Shown here: piece after piece, positions 35,813 to 44,689 of the stretch
How positions within the stretch are numbered: position 1 is the first letter of the stretch
Layout: every line of letters starts with the position of its first letter
From: Lentimicrobium sp. L6
GTDB lineage: Bacteria > Bacteroidota > Bacteroidia > Bacteroidales > UBA12170
NCBI RefSeq assembly: GCF_013166655.1
Contig: NZ_JABKCA010000001.1
Coordinates: 1 to 64,000 of the forward strand
DNA: 64,000 nt
Direction of reading: 5' to 3'
The notes under the pieces: generated by a model
Database searches by the model: none
What the model saw: the letters and a program-made list of their open reading frames with translations, nothing else
Told to the model about the DNA's origin: nothing
Made by a program: the position numbers and the translations under genes

Positions 35813-37576
35813 ATGAGAACTTACCAAAGAGGATTCGAACAAAACTCTATAATCACTATAGTCACCTTTATACTTCTGTATATAATGGTGTTTTTTGCTT
35901 TAGATTCTCCTCTGAATCATTTGCTATTTGCTTGGCCATCTATAATCATCTATTTGGTGATTATGGGAGGGCGCTTTTGGATGTTATTCAATGGGCAGAA
36001 AACCACAGAAGATTATAAAATTACTCAAGTTCTGATATATGCTGGTGCCATATTTTGGTCCATGAATTATGGTTTGGGTTTGATAATGCAACCAAGTATT
36101 CAAGAAAACCTATTAATCATCATCTTTCTCATGGGAATTGGAGCCGCTGGAGCTATTGGATTATCAAAAGATAGTAAACTGACAGTAGGCTTTCTTTTGA
36201 GTTTGTTTGTGCCTTCTGCTATTTTTTCCTTCATATATTTGGACAAGTTGAATCTGTTTATTGGACTCGCATTTGCGATGTATTGTGTTTACTTAATGTT
36301 TTATTCCAATAAATATTATAGAATTTCTCAGGAAAATATAGCAGGTAAATTAGAACTTGAACATCAAAAAGAAGCTCTGGAGGATCATCAAAAACTATTA
36401 ACTATACAAAATCAACAATTAGAAGAAACCTTAAGTAAGGCAAAAATGGCAGATAAGGCCAAAAGCCTTTTTCTAGCCAATATGAGCCATGAAATACGAA
36501 CACCTTTGAATGGGATTATTGGGATGAGTCATTTGTTGAAACAGACTGAAATGAATGGAGATCAATATAAAAAAGTATCTATCATTGAATTCTCAGCCGA
36601 AACACTAGTTTCTTTAGTGAATGATATCTTAGATTTTTCTAAGATTGAAGCAGGAAAGTTAGAGCTAGATTTAGATCATTTTAATCTCCATGAAGTCATC
36701 AATAATACTTGCGAATTATTTGTTGAGAAAAGTAAAGAAAAGAAATTGGAATTCCGCTGTGAAATATCACCCGATGTTCCTGTTTTTGTTTACAGTGATG
36801 AGATCCGGATTAAGCAAATTCTAATAAATCTAATTAATAATGCCATAAAATTTACCAGTGCAGGAGGAATAGATATTCACATTAACGTTGAAAATAAAAC
36901 AGAGAAGGGTTTGTTTTTAAAATTTGAAGTTATTGATTCTGGTATTGGGATTAGCAAAGAAAATCAGGAGAAGTTGTTTTCTGCATTTACACAAAGTGAT
37001 GCATCATTCACGAGAAAATTTGGTGGGACAGGTTTGGGTTTGGCTATTTCAAAAAAACTGTCATCATTACTTGGAGGGAATATTGGTTTAGAAAGTGAAT
37101 TGGGAAAGGGTTCTAATTTTTGGTTTACGGTTTCTGTTGAGGAAGGAAAGGAGAAAATACTGCAACAGGATGTCGCTGAAGTAGGAATAAGAAAAAGCTT
37201 GCAAATTTTATTATCAGAAGATAATAAGATTAATGTTCTTGTGGCAAAGCAGATGATTGAAAATGCAGGTCATAGAGTGGTAGTGGCTAATAATGGAATG
37301 GAAGCGGTGGAATGTTTTCAACAACAGGAATTCGATCTAATAATAATGGATATCATGATGCCAGAAATGGATGGCTTAGAGGCCACTTGGATTATACGAC
37401 AAATGGAAAGAGAAAAGAACACCCCCAATATTCCTATCATTGCTTTAACCGCAAATGTGGTTCGAGAAGACCAAGAAAAATATATATCCGCAGGAATGAA
37501 TGATTTTATAAGTAAGCCCATCCATCCTCAAATTCTGCTTGAAAAAATAGAAAAGTTATTTCAAGATTCAGAATAA
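35813..37576 (+). CDS. Hybrid sensor histidine kinase/response regulator
   Basis: The 587-residue protein has six spans in the first 170 residues, with no large periplasmic sensor, then a coiled coil (175-215). HisKA carries phospho-His226 in 'MSHEIRTPLNGIIGM', and HATPase_c has 'NLINNAIKFT', 'DSGIGIS' and 'GGTGLGLAISKKL'. The C-terminal receiver has phospho-Asp513 in 'IIMDIMMPEMDG' and 'IIALTANV'. There is no output domain, so the signal must pass to another protein by phosphotransfer. It probably senses a membrane or intramembrane cue. No partner regulator is adjacent. Confidence 0.93.
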   Translation: MRTYQRGFEQNSIITIVTFILLYIMVFFALDSPLNHLLFAWPSIIIYLVIMGGRFWMLFNGQKTTEDYKITQVLIYAGAIFWSMNYGLGLIMQPSIQENLLIIIFLMGIGAAGAIGLSKDSKLTVGFLLSLFVPSAIFSFIYLDKLNLFIGLAFAMYCVYLMFYSNKYYRISQENIAGKLELEHQKEALEDHQKLLTIQNQQLEETLSKAKMADKAKSLFLANMSHEIRTPLNGIIGMSHLLKQTEMNGDQYKKVSIIEFSAETLVSLVNDILDFSKIEAGKLELDLDHFNLHEVINNTCELFVEKSKEKKLEFRCEISPDVPVFVYSDEIRIKQILINLINNAIKFTSAGGIDIHINVENKTEKGLFLKFEVIDSGIGISKENQEKLFSAFTQSDASFTRKFGGTGLGLAISKKLSSLLGGNIGLESELGKGSNFWFTVSVEEGKEKILQQDVAEVGIRKSLQILLSEDNKINVLVAKQMIENAGHRVVVANNGMEAVECFQQQEFDLIIMDIMMPEMDGLEATWIIRQMEREKNTPNIPIIALTANVVREDQEKYISAGMNDFISKPIHPQILLEKIEKLFQDSE

Positions 37577-37639
37577 TTCTATGAATTCATATGTAAATTC
37601 TATAGGTTTTGTAGTTTTACACTTATTTATACGATGTAC

Positions 37640-38530
37640 ATGAAAAAAATATTTTCTCTATTTATTGTTTTATTACTTTTTGCCATTGGTGTTTTGGGTC
37701 AGAATAAATCCATCCCTGAAGATTTTTGTATTACCCAAAAAGAGTATCAATTATACGAACTCATCAATCAATATCGTGCTAAACTGATGCTTGAACCCAT
37801 TACCTTAAGTAATTCTTTATGTTTTGTGGCTAAAACCCACGCCAAAGATTTGTCTCAAAACTATCCGATTGGAGAGGATTGTAATATGCATTCTTGGTCA
37901 GCAAATAGTGATTGGAAATCATTCTGTTTTCCTGCCGATCAGAATAGGAAAAACGATATTAAGGATAAAGCTAAAGAATTAACTTCTTATCCTGGTAAGG
38001 CTTGGGAGATTACTTATTGGGATAACCAAGAATTAAATTTGGATAATGTGGTAGAGTTTTGGACCAGTATAGAATATACCGCAGCCATGCTCAGTAATAC
38101 CGAAAAATGGAAAGATAAGGTTTGGAGGAGTATTGGTCTCGGTATCTATGATGGTTATGTTTTGCTTTGGTTGGGAGAAAAGGAGGATGTTGAATTAAAT
38201 ACCATCGTCTGCGAAACTGGAGAAAGAATAATGAATAAATCCATCCCAAATGAATTGATTGTGCCGGTAGCTAGTCAAATGAGTTCATCAAGTAACACTG
38301 TAAAGGCAAAGCACTATTATATTATTATAGGTAGTTATAAAAAAAAGGCAGATGCACAAGCGGCCATTGATAGTTATCATCAGATGGGTTATCCCAATGC
38401 ACAGTTAATTGAAGAGCAAGGAAGAGTTAGGGTTGCTATCGATAAACTAGAATCCGAAGTAGATGCAAATGAATCTTTAGCAAAGTATCGTAATAAATTC
38501 CAAGGGGCTTGGGTTTTTTTAAAGCAGTAA
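37640..38530 (+). CDS. CAP/SCP-like secreted protein with C-terminal SPOR domain
   Basis: Start is placed at the second ATG (37640), which gives the signal peptide MKKIFSLFIVLLLFAIGVLG; ATG 37634 adds two residues. Residues of about 30-200 have CAP features: 'EYQLYELINQYRAKLMLEPI', 'LCFVAKTHAKDLSQNYP', 'NMHSWSANSDW' and 'VWRSIGLGIYDGYVLLWLG'. The last 75 residues form a SPOR domain ('HYYIIIGSYKKKADAQAAID', 'YPNAQLIEEQGRVRVAI'), which binds denuded peptidoglycan. This suggests a periplasmic septal or wall location. Its stop overlaps the convergent PKD gene by 12 bases. Confidence 0.82.
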   Translation: MKKIFSLFIVLLLFAIGVLGQNKSIPEDFCITQKEYQLYELINQYRAKLMLEPITLSNSLCFVAKTHAKDLSQNYPIGEDCNMHSWSANSDWKSFCFPADQNRKNDIKDKAKELTSYPGKAWEITYWDNQELNLDNVVEFWTSIEYTAAMLSNTEKWKDKVWRSIGLGIYDGYVLLWLGEKEDVELNTIVCETGERIMNKSIPNELIVPVASQMSSSSNTVKAKHYYIIIGSYKKKADAQAAIDSYHQMGYPNAQLIEEQGRVRVAIDKLESEVDANESLAKYRNKFQGAWVFLKQ

Positions 38531-41500
38531 AGTTACGGAACCTTTCATTACTTTGTGGTTGCCATTTAAATCCTTAACCCTAATTATCCAAGCATAACTG
38601 CCAATATCGGCAGGTGTGCCATCTTGCATTTTTCCATCCCAATGGTGGAAATAATCTTGACTATGGAAGAAAAGCTTTCCCCATCTATTATAAATTTTTA
38701 AGTCGTATGATTCCATTTCGAAATATTTTCCAATAGGTCCAAAGGTCTCGTTTATTCCATTTCCGTTTGGTGAAAATCCAGAAGGTACATACAAGTTATA
38801 AACTGGGAATACATAAAAGAATTTCTCCATGGTATCTTGGCAACCATAATCATTCATGGTAATAAGCTTTAGGCTATAATACCCCGTGTCGTATATGCTA
38901 TCGCCAATATGAGGTTCGTATGTGTTTTCCCATACAATTGTATCTGATAATAGCCATCTAATATATGGGTCTTCGTTAACTAAATTGGTGACCTCAATCT
39001 CTGATGAATTACTAACACTTATTTCTTCAGGATCTAATAGGAAATCAGCATCTATAATAGGATTGATGAGGAGGTAGTCCTCTAGCTCTAAAATGCTTTT
39101 ACAAAAATGGTCTGAAATATTTTCTAATTTCACATTATATATACCCTCCTCATAAATATGATAAACAGTATCTCTATTGGTTGTATTTATCGCACCATCT
39201 CCGAATATCCATAGACGTTCTGCAATTGTGCCGGTATTAATATAACTGGTGTCGATAAATTGAATCTTTGCTTCTCCACAATGGATAGTACTATCTGCAA
39301 AAAAACCTATTTTAGGTTTTGGATGAATAGTGGTGTTGAGCAGTAAACTATCGCTACAATTGTTATTAGCAGTCATTTTTAACTGAACATTGTAGGGACC
39401 ATCTTCATTATACAAATAAGAAAAAGTATTTGCTCCTGGAGAATATTGGTAAATTGAATCTACACCATTTCCTAAGTTCCAGCTTACCCATTCAAATTCT
39501 GCATTATTGATACTTGATTCATTTTGAAATTCTGAAATTTGACCATAACATACTTCATTTACGCTAAAGCTGACTTGGGGGCTTGCTAAAATTTCAACTT
39601 CTTTTTCAGAACTGTCTTTAATAATCAAATCTTCAATCTGATATTTGATTAATAATTTTGTTTGATAGTTTCCAGGATATTGGTATTGATAATAGATAGT
39701 ATCTTGTTCTACAGGGATATTTTGCATACTACCATCCCCAAAATATATTGCTTTACTTGTGATAGAATAATCTGAATTGGTATAGGTGCTATCAATAAAA
39801 ACAGCTGGAGTATTTTGACAAATCCAGTTGGTGTCATTATAATAATGTACCAAGACACAAGGGTAATGATTGATTTCTTGCATACTTATGTCTGAGCAGC
39901 CATTTATGTCTTGAATATATAAGCTGCTGTGATAAGCTCCATATAGAGGAGGGTAATGGTGGAAATGGTCTGGGGAATTAGGGCTATGTATTTCTAGATG
40001 TTCTCCATCTCCATAGTTCCATTTCCAGTAAGTTAGGGGGGTGTCTGCAGCAATACTTTCATCAGTAAAGATGCTGCTGTCATTACAATAGCTTTCTGTG
40101 AATTGGTATGATGAAATAGGGTTTTCCCATATTTTAACTTGTTTTCTGACTTCGTCAATACAACCATTTATATTCGTGGCTTGTAGAGTCACTTCAAATT
40201 CTCCAGGATTTATAAATTTATGAAGCGTTTTATTATTTGTGCTAATCAGTTGAGGGCTTCCATCTTGAAATTCCCAAGTATAATAAGAAATACTATCTTC
40301 ATCAGGTTTAATAATAAAGGTGGATAGTTCTGTAGTATCACCAAAACAAACGGTATCAGCCTGAAATCCTATTTGTAATTCAGGCTTAATAAAAATATTT
40401 TTTGTAATAGAATCTCTACATCCTCTTTCGTCTTTTATCAATAAGCTCACATCATAATAGTATCCAATATCCAAAAACACAAAATATGTTTCTGGATCGA
40501 AAGAAATATGACCATCAGGGAAATTCCACTTTAAATAATTTATATTGTTCTCGTTGGAGTAAGAGCTGTCACAGAAATATACTAATCCTTCAGTACATGC
40601 GGTATCACTGCTAATGAAATTGGCAACTGGTGGCTCCCAAACCCAGGCTGTTTTAGTAATAGTATCACTACAACCGGCATCGTTACCAGCAATTAATTGA
40701 ATCTCATAATAACCAGGATTATTATATAAATGATTTGGATTTTGTTCAGTACTAGTTTCTGTGTCTCCAAAATTCCAAATCCAGAAATCAATAGCTGATT
40801 GAGGTTGAGAAAGATCTGTAAAACTAGTTGGGGTATTAAAACAGACGGTGTCAGATCTAAAATTAGTGATAGGAGCGTTGTAAACTGGAACCATATGGCT
40901 TTTATTGTTCGTACAGTTATTGGTATCGATAATACTTAGGTTTACTATAAATTCTCCGTCAGTTGTGTATTCATGAGTAGGGTTTGAGTAATTACTCGAC
41001 AGGCCATCTCCAAAATCATAATCCCAAATACTTATTGCCCCCATATTTATGAAATCGGAGTCGTTGAACTCTGTGGGGGTGCCGAGACATGCCTCAGTAT
41101 AGGAAAAGTCTACTTCTGGATTTTCATAAATTTGAATGGGTATTTGAATGGTGTTTGAACATCCAATAGAGTTCATGACGCTGAGTGTGACATTATGATT
41201 TCCTGCAATTGAGTAAATATGAAAAGGGTTTGGTTCTTCAGAGTAATTGCCATCACCAAAACTCCAATTCCAAGAAGCAATATTTCCTTCTATAGCTTCA
41301 CTGTTATCTGAAAAATGAATAGTAGTGTTTTCACAAGCTCCTCCATCGGTGTAGGAGAAAGAGAAATCGCTAATCGGGTTGTTTTTTACCCAAACACTAT
41401 GCGTGACTTGATCAATACAAGAGTTTTCATTTTCCACCAGCAGTGTTACAGTGTAGAGGCCAGCTTGTGTGTATAAATGTGTAGGGCTGGAGACGGAACT

Positions 41501-44500
41501 AATATTACCATCTCCAAAATCCCATTCCCAAGTAGTTATTCCTACATCTGAGGAGGATAAATCATTAAAATTGGTGTAGGCACCGAAGCAAATGGTATCA
41601 AAACTAAACTCAGATATTGGATTTTCGTAGACAGGCACGATGTGGTCGATGGCGTTCTGGCAACCATTAATATCGGTAATAGAAAAAATCACATTAAAAT
41701 CTCCACTAGTAGAATAGGAGTGCGACGGGTCGGATTGGTTAGAGAAGTTTCCATCCCCAAAATCATATGCCCAAACACTAGTATTTTCTACATCGATAAA
41801 GTCGCTATCTGTGAATAGGGTCGACGACCCTAAGCAGGCTGGGGTAAAACTAAAATCAATTTCAGGTGCTAAATTGATAATGATTTGTTTTTGGATAACA
41901 TGGATGCATGAGGCAGAATTGGTTACTGTTAAAGTTACGTTATAAGTGCCAGGGCTATCGTATTCGTGAATTGGGTTTGTTACCGTTGAAAAATTTGAAT
42001 CACCAAAATTCCAATACCAATTTGTAATATCATAACTCAGACTAGTGCTTAGGTCGGTAAAACTAATATCACCCCCAGGACAAAAGGTGCCATTTAAGGC
42101 TTCGTAGTTGAAATTGGCGTGTGGACTGGGAAGTACTTCTACTGGTTTCGAAATACTATTGGTACAACCTTCGGATGTTCCAACTTCTAAACTTACGTTA
42201 TAGTTAATCACACTAGTTGGAGGATAAATATAACTAGGGTTCTGGTTTGATGAAGAACCACCATCGCCAAAACTCCAAGACCATTGATTGATAGGTGTGG
42301 ACTGGCTGATAATGGTTGATAAATCAGTAAAATGTGTTGGGTTAGATTGGCAAGATAAATCATAGCTAAAGTCAGCAACAGGAACTTCAAATACATTTAG
42401 TGAGTGAGAGACTGAGTTACTGCACCCGTATATGTCAAAGACTTCTAGATGAACGAAATACTCTCCAGTTGAGGTGTAGGTGTGAGAAGGATCTGAGCTG
42501 TTTCCGGTGTTGCCATCCCCAAATTCATATGACCACGAATTTATTTCTGATGAATTACTATAATCACTATCAATAAAGTCTGTTGTAGACCCTAGACATA
42601 CTTCGGTAAAGGAGAAGTCAACTTCAGGACTGCCAATTATTTCAATAGTTTGAATACTGTTTGAATAGCATCCTCCAGAATTCCCCACCCTTAACTCCAC
42701 TGAATAGGTACCGGAATTTGTATAGGTATAGTTAGGATTCTGTTGGTTTGAGTTGTCTCCATTACCAAAAAACCAATTCCAAGTCTCGATATTTCCTTGG
42801 GAGCTTGTACTTTCATCAATAAATTGTATTTCGGAAAATTGACAAGGGGCACCATTGTTAAATTGATAACTAAATTCCGTCTGAGGTGATTCTAAAATCT
42901 CAACTGTTTTTGATAAAGAGCTACTGCATCCCGCTGTTGTTTCAACTGTCAGAGTAACATTAAAATAGTTATTGTTCTGAATTGAGTAAGTATGACTTGG
43001 ATTTTCTTCGATTGAGGTATTTCCATCCCCAAAATCCCAATACCAAGAATTTACTGGCGTATAAGAACTAGGACAATAAGATAAATTGTTAAATAAAGTT
43101 GTTTTTCCCTCGCAGACGGTATTGTTAGAAAAGTTAGCTATTGGATTATGAAATACTTTAACACTTCTAGTAATACTATTAGAACAGCCATTTTCATCTG
43201 TTATGCTAAATGTGACATTATAGTCGCCAGGGGCATCGTAAACATGACTAGGATTAGATTGTGATGAGGTATTATTGTCGCCAAACTCATAGAACCAAGA
43301 GGTGGTAGTTTCCATATTAATATGATCACTATCATTGAAAAAGGTAGCTTGGTTCTCACAATCTTCAGTAAAAGAAAAGTATATATTAGGAGGCTCATAT
43401 ATTGAAATGCTTTGACTTATAGAATGGGAGCATGCATTTTCATTCTCTATCGTCAAGGTTACCGTATAAATTCCTCCAGTGAAATAAGTATATGTTGGGT
43501 TTTGGATATTTGAAATATTTCCATCTCCAAAATCCCAATTCCAAGTCACGGTGTTTTCAAATAAAGACTCATCGGTAAATTGGATTTCAGATTCTCCACA
43601 CTCTACTCCGTTATCAAAAGAGTATGAAAAGTTTGCAGTGGGGATTTCGGTAACGGTAACCGATTTAGTGATATTGTCAATACAGCCTCCATTATCAATG
43701 GTAAGGGTTACTTCAAACACTCCGCTATAGGAATAGATATGTTCGGGGTTTTGTTCTGTTGATGAATGTCCATCTCCAAAATCCCAACTCCAGCTAATTT
43801 CTGAATTAGAAGTGGATAAATCAGTAAATTGAGTAGCTTGTTGAGCGCAAGCGCTTGTAAAACTATAATCGGCTACTGCGCTTTCGCTCACATCAACAAA
43901 TATAGAAGTAGGGTTACTGCTTCCTTCAGAGGTGGAGACATGAAGTGTGTAGGTGCCAATATGGTCTTCAGTAGCATTTGTGATTATAGGGTTTTGCTCG
44001 GTGGAAATGTAATCATTAGGGCCTAACCAAGTATAAGAGCCTCCATCGGGAGAAGCATACAATTCGATGGTATTCCCTTCACAAACTGGGCTATTACTGG
44101 AGGGGTTAATAATCATATCAGAACATGCTGTTTCACCAGCCCCATCAGATTTTTCAATAGTAACTGTGCATGGGTCTTGAGAGTAATTCATGACTACTAG
44201 AATATAATAATCTCCAACATTCATATTTTCCGAAGGAATATTGCAGTATTCGTTCCAAGTGTAACTATAGGAACAGTCCACTTCATTAATAGATGCTAAT
44301 TGATCAGTACAAGCTCCATAGGGGCTGTCAAAAGGTCCCCAGCAGATAAAATCAACATCTTCTTCATCAGGGTTGTATATATTGAGTTCAATATCGCCGA
44401 CCTGTTCAATTTGCATGTGAAACCAAGCAGGATTTCTCTGTTGATTTAAACAAGCATAGTCTGGACCAATTTCTGCATCGTCAAAATCAAGTCCCCCAGG

Positions 44501-44689
44501 ATAGGTAACTGTCTGGTATGTACATATTAACCAAGATTCGATACAATTAAAGTTTTGCCCAAATGAATTTACATTCAAAAACATAATCATATAAAAAACA
44601 CAAGCCAGTCTAGAAAGACTGACGCCAGTAGTAAATTGTAAAATGCTTTTGTTTTTGTAAATAGGAGCAAGGCTACCATTTTGAAACAT
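38519..44689 (-). CDS. Giant secreted PKD-repeat protein with T9SS type B sorting domain
   Basis: The 2056-residue protein has a signal sequence near residues 25-45 ('RLACVFYMIMFLNVNSFG'), an N-terminal beta-sandwich domain of about 130 residues ('QIEQVGDIELNIYNPDEEDV', 'YYILVVMNYSQDPCTVTIEK'), an Ig-like domain ('CEGNTIELYASPDGGSYTW'), and about 19 PKD or PKD-like domains recognised by 'W.W.FGDG' followed by 'NP.H.Y...G.Y.V.L.V'. The end is a gliding-motility/CHU_C type B sorting domain: 'LYVPSGFSPNGNGINETFGP', 'LKIYNRWGKLFFHSQDY', 'GKMQDGTPADIGSYAWIIRV'. T9SS should export it as a long surface adhesin. Domains 1-13 form a three-domain super-repeat. Two Cys per PKD unit are common and may be oxidised. 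Confidence 0.92.
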   Translation of the reverse strand: MFQNGSLAPIYKNKSILQFTTGVSLSRLACVFYMIMFLNVNSFGQNFNCIESWLICTYQTVTYPGGLDFDDAEIGPDYACLNQQRNPAWFHMQIEQVGDIELNIYNPDEEDVDFICWGPFDSPYGACTDQLASINEVDCSYSYTWNEYCNIPSENMNVGDYYILVVMNYSQDPCTVTIEKSDGAGETACSDMIINPSSNSPVCEGNTIELYASPDGGSYTWLGPNDYISTEQNPIITNATEDHIGTYTLHVSTSEGSSNPTSIFVDVSESAVADYSFTSACAQQATQFTDLSTSNSEISWSWDFGDGHSSTEQNPEHIYSYSGVFEVTLTIDNGGCIDNITKSVTVTEIPTANFSYSFDNGVECGESEIQFTDESLFENTVTWNWDFGDGNISNIQNPTYTYFTGGIYTVTLTIENENACSHSISQSISIYEPPNIYFSFTEDCENQATFFNDSDHINMETTTSWFYEFGDNNTSSQSNPSHVYDAPGDYNVTFSITDENGCSNSITRSVKVFHNPIANFSNNTVCEGKTTLFNNLSYCPSSYTPVNSWYWDFGDGNTSIEENPSHTYSIQNNNYFNVTLTVETTAGCSSSLSKTVEILESPQTEFSYQFNNGAPCQFSEIQFIDESTSSQGNIETWNWFFGNGDNSNQQNPNYTYTNSGTYSVELRVGNSGGCYSNSIQTIEIIGSPEVDFSFTEVCLGSTTDFIDSDYSNSSEINSWSYEFGDGNTGNSSDPSHTYTSTGEYFVHLEVFDIYGCSNSVSHSLNVFEVPVADFSYDLSCQSNPTHFTDLSTIISQSTPINQWSWSFGDGGSSSNQNPSYIYPPTSVINYNVSLEVGTSEGCTNSISKPVEVLPSPHANFNYEALNGTFCPGGDISFTDLSTSLSYDITNWYWNFGDSNFSTVTNPIHEYDSPGTYNVTLTVTNSASCIHVIQKQIIINLAPEIDFSFTPACLGSSTLFTDSDFIDVENTSVWAYDFGDGNFSNQSDPSHSYSTSGDFNVIFSITDINGCQNAIDHIVPVYENPISEFSFDTICFGAYTNFNDLSSSDVGITTWEWDFGDGNISSVSSPTHLYTQAGLYTVTLLVENENSCIDQVTHSVWVKNNPISDFSFSYTDGGACENTTIHFSDNSEAIEGNIASWNWSFGDGNYSEEPNPFHIYSIAGNHNVTLSVMNSIGCSNTIQIPIQIYENPEVDFSYTEACLGTPTEFNDSDFINMGAISIWDYDFGDGLSSNYSNPTHEYTTDGEFIVNLSIIDTNNCTNNKSHMVPVYNAPITNFRSDTVCFNTPTSFTDLSQPQSAIDFWIWNFGDTETSTEQNPNHLYNNPGYYEIQLIAGNDAGCSDTITKTAWVWEPPVANFISSDTACTEGLVYFCDSSYSNENNINYLKWNFPDGHISFDPETYFVFLDIGYYYDVSLLIKDERGCRDSITKNIFIKPELQIGFQADTVCFGDTTELSTFIIKPDEDSISYYTWEFQDGSPQLISTNNKTLHKFINPGEFEVTLQATNINGCIDEVRKQVKIWENPISSYQFTESYCNDSSIFTDESIAADTPLTYWKWNYGDGEHLEIHSPNSPDHFHHYPPLYGAYHSSLYIQDINGCSDISMQEINHYPCVLVHYYNDTNWICQNTPAVFIDSTYTNSDYSITSKAIYFGDGSMQNIPVEQDTIYYQYQYPGNYQTKLLIKYQIEDLIIKDSSEKEVEILASPQVSFSVNEVCYGQISEFQNESSINNAEFEWVSWNLGNGVDSIYQYSPGANTFSYLYNEDGPYNVQLKMTANNNCSDSLLLNTTIHPKPKIGFFADSTIHCGEAKIQFIDTSYINTGTIAERLWIFGDGAINTTNRDTVYHIYEEGIYNVKLENISDHFCKSILELEDYLLINPIIDADFLLDPEEISVSNSSEIEVTNLVNEDPYIRWLLSDTIVWENTYEPHIGDSIYDTGYYSLKLITMNDYGCQDTMEKFFYVFPVYNLYVPSGFSPNGNGINETFGPIGKYFEMESYDLKIYNRWGKLFFHSQDYFHHWDGKMQDGTPADIGSYAWIIRVKDLNGNHKVMKGSVTLLL
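40630..43880 (-). repeat. ABC-ABC-ABC-ABC-A higher-order repeat of PKD domains
   Basis: Units 1, 4, 7, 10 and 13 share 'FTDLS'-type starts. Units 2, 5, 8 and 11 carry an extra Asn/Asp-Gly-x-x-Cys insert ('FDNGVEC', 'FNNGAPC', 'LNGTFC', 'TDGGAC'). Units 3, 6, 9 and 12 carry 'DSD[HYF]' with 'W.Y[ED]FGD' in place of 'W.W.FGDG' and end in 'VF' or 'VY' plus '..P'. Triplets of about 250 residues (750 bases) were thus duplicated as blocks; later units (14-19) are degenerate. Confidence 0.8.

Follow-up and report, generated by a model that had tools for sequence, protein, structure and literature searches.

Among the closest described counterparts of the domain array studied here are the A-band super-repeats of titin, which consist of blocks of 7 or 11 immunoglobulin (Ig) and fibronectin type III (FnIII) domains. 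In the sections of a titin study that deal with these blocks (PMC10665226), the position of a domain in its block predicts its similarity to other domains, most clearly in the central blocks, and some positions bear conserved surface clusters. According to the main text of Bjorklund et al. 2006 (PMC1553488), domain repeats usually grow by duplicating several domains together (7 in nebulin, 5 in cadherin, 4 for FnIII domains, and others), unlike neighbours arise mainly through block duplication, which selection against aggregation may favour, and such repeats are much commoner in eukaryotes than in prokaryotes; PKD domains have no occurrence in this main text. Here we analyzed a sequence of 64,000 nucleotides, referred to as the window, from Lentimicrobium sp. 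L6 of the Bacteroidota (assembly GCF_013166655.1, contig NZ_JABKCA010000001.1, positions 1 to 64,000). It contains a gene for a giant protein with 20 PKD-like domains (units 1 to 20), the first 13 of which follow a repeating order of three types, A, B and C. As in titin, beta-sandwich types stand in tandem in a fixed order and were copied in blocks, but the window array is bacterial, consists of PKD domains only and has a block of three, and no thick-filament-like ruler is known for it. Compared with the repeats compiled by Bjorklund et al., the new element is a bacterial set of proteins with a conserved three-type order.

The arrangement of the PKD domains as a three-domain higher-order repeat was first proposed from the sequence alone, and all-against-all comparison of units 1-13 clearly bears it out. 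The mean identity was 44, 45, 43 and 44% at offsets of 3, 6, 9 and 12 units, with every other offset at 35-38%, and for all 13 units the best-scoring other unit was one of the same phase. The period of three had a z-value of 5.9, which none of 5,000 permutations reached. Periods 2, 4 and 5 were negative, and period 6 was positive (z 3.2) because six is a multiple of three. The signal is not due to inserts alone, since it persisted when the comparison was restricted to the 81 shared columns (z 5.1, 0/5,000), and since each half of the domain carried it by itself (z 5.4, 0/5,000, and z 3.2, 15/5,000). No period of three was found in units 14-20 (1,572 of 2,000 permutations as high), which we refer to as the core. 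The original prediction that the protein grew by triplets instead of by single PKD domains therefore cannot be extended to the protein as a whole, as its last seven units show no such history.

The motifs on which the three types had been based were found as described for the B units (2, 5, 8 and 11), in which '[ND]G..C' occurs as NGVEC, NGAPC, NGTFC and DGGAC, and for the C units (3, 6, 9 and 12), which carry 'DSD' and 'W.Y[ED]FGD'. The 'FTDLS'-like starts of the A units (1, 4, 7, 10 and 13) are likewise present, as FTDLS, FNNLS, FTDLS, FNDLS and FTDLS, respectively, but FTDLS also occurs in unit 8, which is of type B, and this motif is thus not exclusive to A units. Clustering of the domain tree by position modulo three was clear for one type and weak for the other two. 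When only units 1-13 were placed in a tree, the C units formed one clade (support 100/99), whereas A and B were not recovered as clades, although neither clade was rejected by the approximately unbiased (AU) test (p 0.55 each). The phase labels needed 3 changes on this tree, where the minimum is 2 and shuffled labels need 6.4 on average, and as few changes were obtained in only 1 of 200 shuffles. The A units come in two forms, a long one with loop insertions (units 4 and 7, and also units 1 and 2 of the ortholog in genome G002) and a short one (units 1, 10 and 13). This split into long and short forms constitutes a second pattern, beyond simple triplets.

The core was found at E <=1e-30 in 4 of 11 genomes of the family, namely the genome of the window itself, G002, G003 and G009; with a single sequence of the core as query, there were no named relatives among the matches. 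Orthologs from the same genus keep the C-terminal core beside one A-B-C run or none. As judged by motif, the G002 protein reads A-A-B-C-A followed by units 14-20, the G009 protein has a single A-like unit ahead of unit 14, and the G003 protein has a long array that ends in A-B-C-A before unit 14. Two contigs of G003, C169 (end of locus L048) and C125 (start of L036), share a 99-base end inside the PKD array, and they probably encode a single protein of about 4,700 amino acids (aa) with about 41 PKD units. The period of three in this array was as high in 7 of 2,000 permutations over all 41 units and in none of 2,000 for units 8-27, a range picked after looking at the data. When the domains of the orthologs were included in the tree, the C clade persisted and contained the C domains of G002 and G003 (100/98), a B clade was recovered without unit 8 and the B unit of G003 (97/86), and the A domains were scattered. 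The identity among paralogous units of the window (44-56% for C and 37-49% for B) is close to that between units 13-20 and their G002 orthologs (39-63%), which places the copying at about the time of the split between the species. Among units 1-13, 1,098 of 2,412 identical residues (45.5%) are encoded by identical codons, compared to 1,125 (46.7%) expected from codon usage; for same-phase pairs this value is 46.2%, and the nucleotide identity was 51-57% in the eight same-phase pairs displayed. Recent duplication or gene conversion in units 1-13 was rejected, as there is no excess of identical codons. Duplication of triplets is thus supported but ancient, and the synonymous sites are saturated.

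To place the period of three in context, arrays of at least 9 PKD units with gaps of at most 30 residues were analyzed in two non-random sets. The first set was based on similarity to the whole window protein and on the best PKD matches in genomes from the order and the phylum, and it includes the window and its orthologs (frames below 500 aa were dropped). The second set stems from a search with the core, of which the best 80 of 382 loci were used (frames below 600 aa were dropped, and L115 and L116 were omitted as they were already counted as G003 and G002). At least one array is present in both sets, as L051 and L120, which agree in length, unit number and contig size. A super-repeat at p<0.01, corrected for the choice of period, was found in 9 of 42 arrays of the first set (period 2 in five, period 3 in three, period 5 in one) and in 23 of 50 arrays of the second set (period 3 in 18, period 2 in four, period 5 in one), many arrays of the second set being orthologs of each other. 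No super-repeat (p >=0.05) was observed in 28 and 20 arrays, respectively. When the 44 arrays with p<0.05 were joined by single linkage on phase-consistent similarity, 12 groups resulted, five of which have period 2, three period 3, three period 5 and one period 4 (a single array, p 0.027). This number is an upper limit to the independent origins; L045 and L046, for instance, are same-genus counterparts left apart by the threshold. Of the 27 period-3 arrays, 25 fell into one connected set, which includes the window and G003, and L164 and L050 remained outside.

The census also allowed us to examine the idea that a period of three is imposed by the PKD fold. As arrays of period 2 and 5 exist, this idea was rejected as a general rule. 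In the original prediction, the fixed order was taken to suggest a structural period or specific contacts between types, but if like pairs with like in recombination, the order of the types could persist without any contact between them. The period-2 arrays include eight phase-linked frames of 1,668 to 2,454 aa (two in L053 and one each in L064, L084, L087, L090, L177 and L185). For period 5, L049 (G057:C116; z 4.7) and L167 (JAHEYF010000038.1; z 7.0) show no phase link to each other. L164 (JALEFZ010000040.1, Bacteroidia bacterium CC_bin17) has 56 PKD units in one frame with a period of three (z 17) and, judging from its lack of a phase link to the connected set, it is possibly an independent super-repeat. 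Neither of the other arrays of at least 9 units in the genome of the window (contigs C9 and C81) had a significant period. In the same genome, L033 (C132), L034 (C6) and L029 (C9) are similar giant frames, each cut off by the end of its contig within or close to a PKD array, and C132 and C6 end in nearly identical 25 residues. The PKD repeats may have broken the assembly at these three contig ends.

Without the window and G003, the connected set contains 23 arrays in nine ortholog-like groups; 22 of the arrays came from the search with the core, so that the presence of the core and of the C-terminal sorting domain (CTD) in this set holds by construction. Two of the arrays, L168 and L171, reach the edge of their contigs and were handled as lacking the core. 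Units were assigned to types a, b and c with models trained on the other groups only, the phase labels of the training arrays being set with models from L171 alone and the last eight units, which represent the core, being left out. In all 23 arrays taken together, 250 of 261 neighbouring called pairs were in the order a-b-c, where one third is expected by chance. With only the longest array of each of the nine groups, this was the case for 102 of 106 pairs, a count that supersedes the one obtained with models including the core (116 to 9). The consensus sequences show 'P.vdF' in a, an insert after FGDG that ends in 'fP.nPNv.H' in b, and 'FGDP.SG.nNTSt' in c. The non-core part of each of the 23 arrays had a period of three (0 to 8 of 1,000 permutations as high), although it should be noted that the arrays were preselected for this period over their whole length. 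Within the a-b-c stretch, the four related arrays L133, L147, L170 and L175 differ by runs of exactly three units. Models including the core had suggested that the core is in phase with the cycle, but this was not upheld by the core-free models, with which 10 calls in the last eight units matched and 37 did not (seven groups, with a single array taken from each). L172, which stands outside this count as its group is represented by the cut array L171, had 6 matching and 2 non-matching calls. For units 14-20 of the window alone, the value was 1,145/20,000, with a best shift differing from that of units 1-13. In the open-access papers searched, and within the word forms used, we found no description of a three-type PKD order or of a PKD higher-order repeat. 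What is surprising in these results is that nine groups of giant proteins share a conserved order of three types; taken by itself, the window is a good example of block duplication but not an unusual one.

Phase comparisons connect the window array to this set. With the core left out, window type C corresponded to a, A to b and B to c in 21 of 23 array comparisons, as we read the output; L118, L131 and L193 gave this correspondence at 0/1,000 and ten more arrays at <=50/1,000. Units 8-27 of G003 line up with a, b and c in 22 of the 23 arrays, the exception being L168, and the marker loop of G003 (FGDPxSG and variants) is present at units 8, 11, 14, 17, 20, 23 and 26, and also at units 9, 12 and 18 (unit 12 by eye), a further hit at unit 29 being spurious. 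We consider it quite probable that the window array is a diverged member of the a-b-c set, but its own units cannot be typed singly.

The explanation that we favour, and regard as probable overall, is that of a block-copied A-B-C super-repeat in a giant secreted surface-fibre protein, its order kept by recombination, that branched off from the a-b-c set. Three ancestral PKD domains, already distinct from each other, would have been copied as a block, so that similarity recurs at every third domain; such homology-directed block duplication is the likeliest origin of the super-repeat. Unequal homologous recombination would then pair like with like and change the copy number mainly by threes because domains of the same type are most alike, and the order of types would most simply be kept because like units recombine. 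Unlike neighbours were perhaps favoured as well, as they would limit misfolding between adjacent domains. The block in the window is old, and it is probably one branch of a PKD super-repeat that is widespread in core-bearing giant proteins of the Bacteroidota. In the protein, a head consisting of the N-terminal part (residues ~45-193) and the Ig-like domain would be carried on the rod of PKD-like domains, which ends in the core and the sorting signal. Export would occur by the type IX secretion system (T9SS), the sorting domain would keep the protein at the surface, and the rod would hold the head off the cell, as expected for an adhesin or a stalk.

Not all of the data are in agreement with this explanation. 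Growth by triplets is supported by the period, by orthologs with fewer blocks and by the three-unit differences in other proteins, but the unit alignment of the window with G002 has gaps of 3, 2 and 3 domains in the A-A-B-C-A protein of G002, and at least one change in copy number was thus not a triplet. Furthermore, L133, L147, L170 and L175 have single-unit differences at the N-terminal edge, and L140, which is too diverged for a clean comparison, gives mixed gaps. The order of duplication differs among the A, B, C and concatenated-block trees, all with weak support, and the trees are compatible both with gain of blocks in the window and with their loss in its relatives (AU p 0.18 for a single clade of the window blocks). 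With regard to membership in the a-b-c set, L147 (600/1,000) and L134 (31/1,000) give other correspondences of the types, the pooled a/b/c models score all of units 1-13 best as a (units 3, 6, 9 and 12 by 25-35 bits) with a phase that is not significant (1,502/20,000), and the direct phase match of the window with units 8-27 of G003 is not significant (p 0.35). Direct phase matches with L050 (p 0.08) and the C9 array of the same genome (p 0.42) were not significant either, and L052 matched at p 0.005 before correction for ten pairs.

A variant of this explanation is that an ancient three-part array was inherited whole, in which case the window would be the remnant of a longer a-b-c array and G002 and G009 would have lost blocks. 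The copies in the window being about as old as the species split is consistent with this scenario, and so are the long G003 array with its period of three and the nesting, with low support, of the C domains of the orthologs among those of the window. Gain of blocks after the split, tested as lineage-specific gain on A, B, C and the concatenated blocks, was nevertheless not rejected (AU p 0.18 to 0.38), and we consider inheritance of the whole array to have somewhat less than an even chance.

The main rival to an order kept by recombination is selection for the three-domain beat itself, as in a functional super-repeat of the titin kind. The triplet would then be a structural or binding unit with a face or partner site that recurs every three domains. 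Such selection could account for the order having been kept in nine groups, and also in the window, although its synonymous sites are saturated, all the more because recombination of like with like should be inefficient at the nucleotide identity observed. The distinct and recurring loop insertions of the types would fit as well, as would the precedent of conserved surface clusters at titin positions (in the relevant sections of PMC10665226). It is not in line with the occurrence of other PKD arrays with period 2 or 5, and weakly with period 4, or with the many arrays that have no period, and the core of the same rod is non-periodic. We regard functional selection of the triplet as unlikely. 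In its widest form, which we find doubtful, the idea would be that these proteins are titin-like rods of the Bacteroidota, T9SS-secreted giants with an obligatory three-type PKD cycle in which the triplet, roughly 12 nm long by the usual domain length, is a module with a regularly spaced face or partner site; the phase would be kept by selection across protein groups while the number of triplets varies, with the window protein as a diverged representative. Finally, the short length of PKD units and the weak separation of types A and B might suggest that generic PKD variability fell in phase by chance or by an alignment artefact, but this is hardly conceivable given that none of 5,000 permutations was as high, that the signal is present in either half of the domain, and that same-genus orthologs have B- and C-like units in order.

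The architecture of the gene is summarized in the table below. The 20 PKD-like units follow each other head to tail without linkers, with units 1-13 spanning positions 40628-43879. On the protein, PF18911 scored 681 bits with 15 stretches over the curated cut-off, and PF00801 scored 400 bits with 11 stretches. PF18911 has 19 places in the gene, 15 over and 4 under the cut-off (22.9-25.3 bits, at 39122-40123), in agreement with the 19 PKD domains initially counted; our own delineation adds a divergent 20th unit at 38795-39058, which PF18911 does not list.

Table. Features of the PKD gene in the window. The support value in brackets is from the tree that includes the domains of the orthologs.
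Feature	Position	Strand	Description
Whole PKD gene	38519..44689	-	Single long reading frame, 2,056 aa
Residues 1-270	43880..44689	-	Hydrophobic stretch, then part ~45-193, then Ig-like domain 194-265
Unit 1	43640..43879	-	Type A
Unit 2	43388..43639	-	Type B, '[ND]G..C' insert
Unit 3	43142..43387	-	Type C, 'DSD' and 'W.Y[ED]FGD'
Unit 4	42884..43141	-	Type A, long form, two loop insertions
Unit 5	42626..42883	-	Type B
Unit 6	42380..42625	-	Type C
Unit 7	42122..42379	-	Type A, long form
Unit 8	41864..42121	-	Type B by motif and best hits; not grouped with the remaining B units in either tree
Unit 9	41618..41863	-	Type C
Unit 10	41375..41617	-	Type A
Unit 11	41117..41374	-	Type B
Unit 12	40871..41116	-	Type C
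Unit 13	40628..40870	-	Type A; forms a pair with the unit at this position in the G002 ortholog (96/84)
Units 14-20	38795..40627	-	Conserved core; position-specific PKD-like domains, non-periodic
T9SS type B sorting domain (CHU_C / Bac_Flav_CTERM)	38522..38794	-	PF13585, TIGR04131

The hydrophobic stretch close to the N-terminus was identified by reading the translation. Scans with Pfam and NCBIfam gave no family name for residues ~45-193. The Ig-like domain, located at positions 43895-44110 on the minus strand, is the only one of the protein; its Ig_2 match reached 21.7 bits, which is under the cut-off of 27. The sorting domain scored over the cut-offs, with 55.1 bits for PF13585 (cut-off 27) and 36.6 bits for TIGR04131 (cut-off 35). 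In this respect, and in being giant and repetitive, the window protein is like the SprB-like giant adhesins that are cargo of the T9SS with a type B CTD, SprB being a giant surface adhesin with such a domain. Unlike type B cargo that is accompanied by a PorP/SprF partner, the PKD gene has no adjoining PorP/SprF-family gene; the three TIGR03519 matches of the genome are on contigs C110, C5 and C17, and none is on the contig of the window. An adjoining PorP/SprF gene is not known to be required of all T9SS type B cargo. The 3' end of the PKD gene is overlapped by a gene on the plus strand (37634-38530), the product of which seems to have a CAP/SCP domain and, after it, a SPOR-like stretch. A histidine kinase gene (35813-37576) adjoins the copy in G002 as well, this being the genome in which synteny was inspected.

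An AlphaFold model of four successive units, A-B-C-A (units 10-13, from a four-row alignment), had a mean predicted local distance difference test score of 84.8 and a predicted template modelling score of 0.61, with three of the five models being poor, and it shows strands in four successive domains. The fold of a single unit is like that of the PKD domains of the collagenases ColG and ColH (Z 13.7-14.1, root-mean-square deviation (rmsd) 1.6 over 82-84 residues), clostridial enzymes that have one or two accessory PKD domains and not an array. Over its full length, the predicted four-unit rod aligns best with fragments of GhpA, the protein of the Aureispira grappling hooks (9flp and similar entries), at Z 13.6-14.2 and rmsd 5.0-7.0 over 303-311 residues, but a four-domain rod of fibronectin gave nearly the same score (Z 13.5, rmsd 10.5). 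The Ig-like region of the window protein (residues 196-268) matches 9flp in 26 stretches (chain E 4.5e-149), and GhpA is absent from the 13 chains matched by the PKD array at E 1e-5; the likeness is at the level of domains only. The GhpA grappling hook is a heptameric hooked filament, and the matches described here support a rod and not a hook.

Titin is well known for its super-repeats of typed beta-sandwich domains, and the proteins described here would provide a bacterial counterpart, with a conserved three-type order and changes in copy number mainly by triplets. The name 'PKD domain' gives no hint of this level of organisation, and the super-repeat may also explain why assemblies break in such genes. 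Together with the parallel arrays of period 2 and 5, these proteins represent many natural experiments on whether order in giant rods is held by function or only by recombination.

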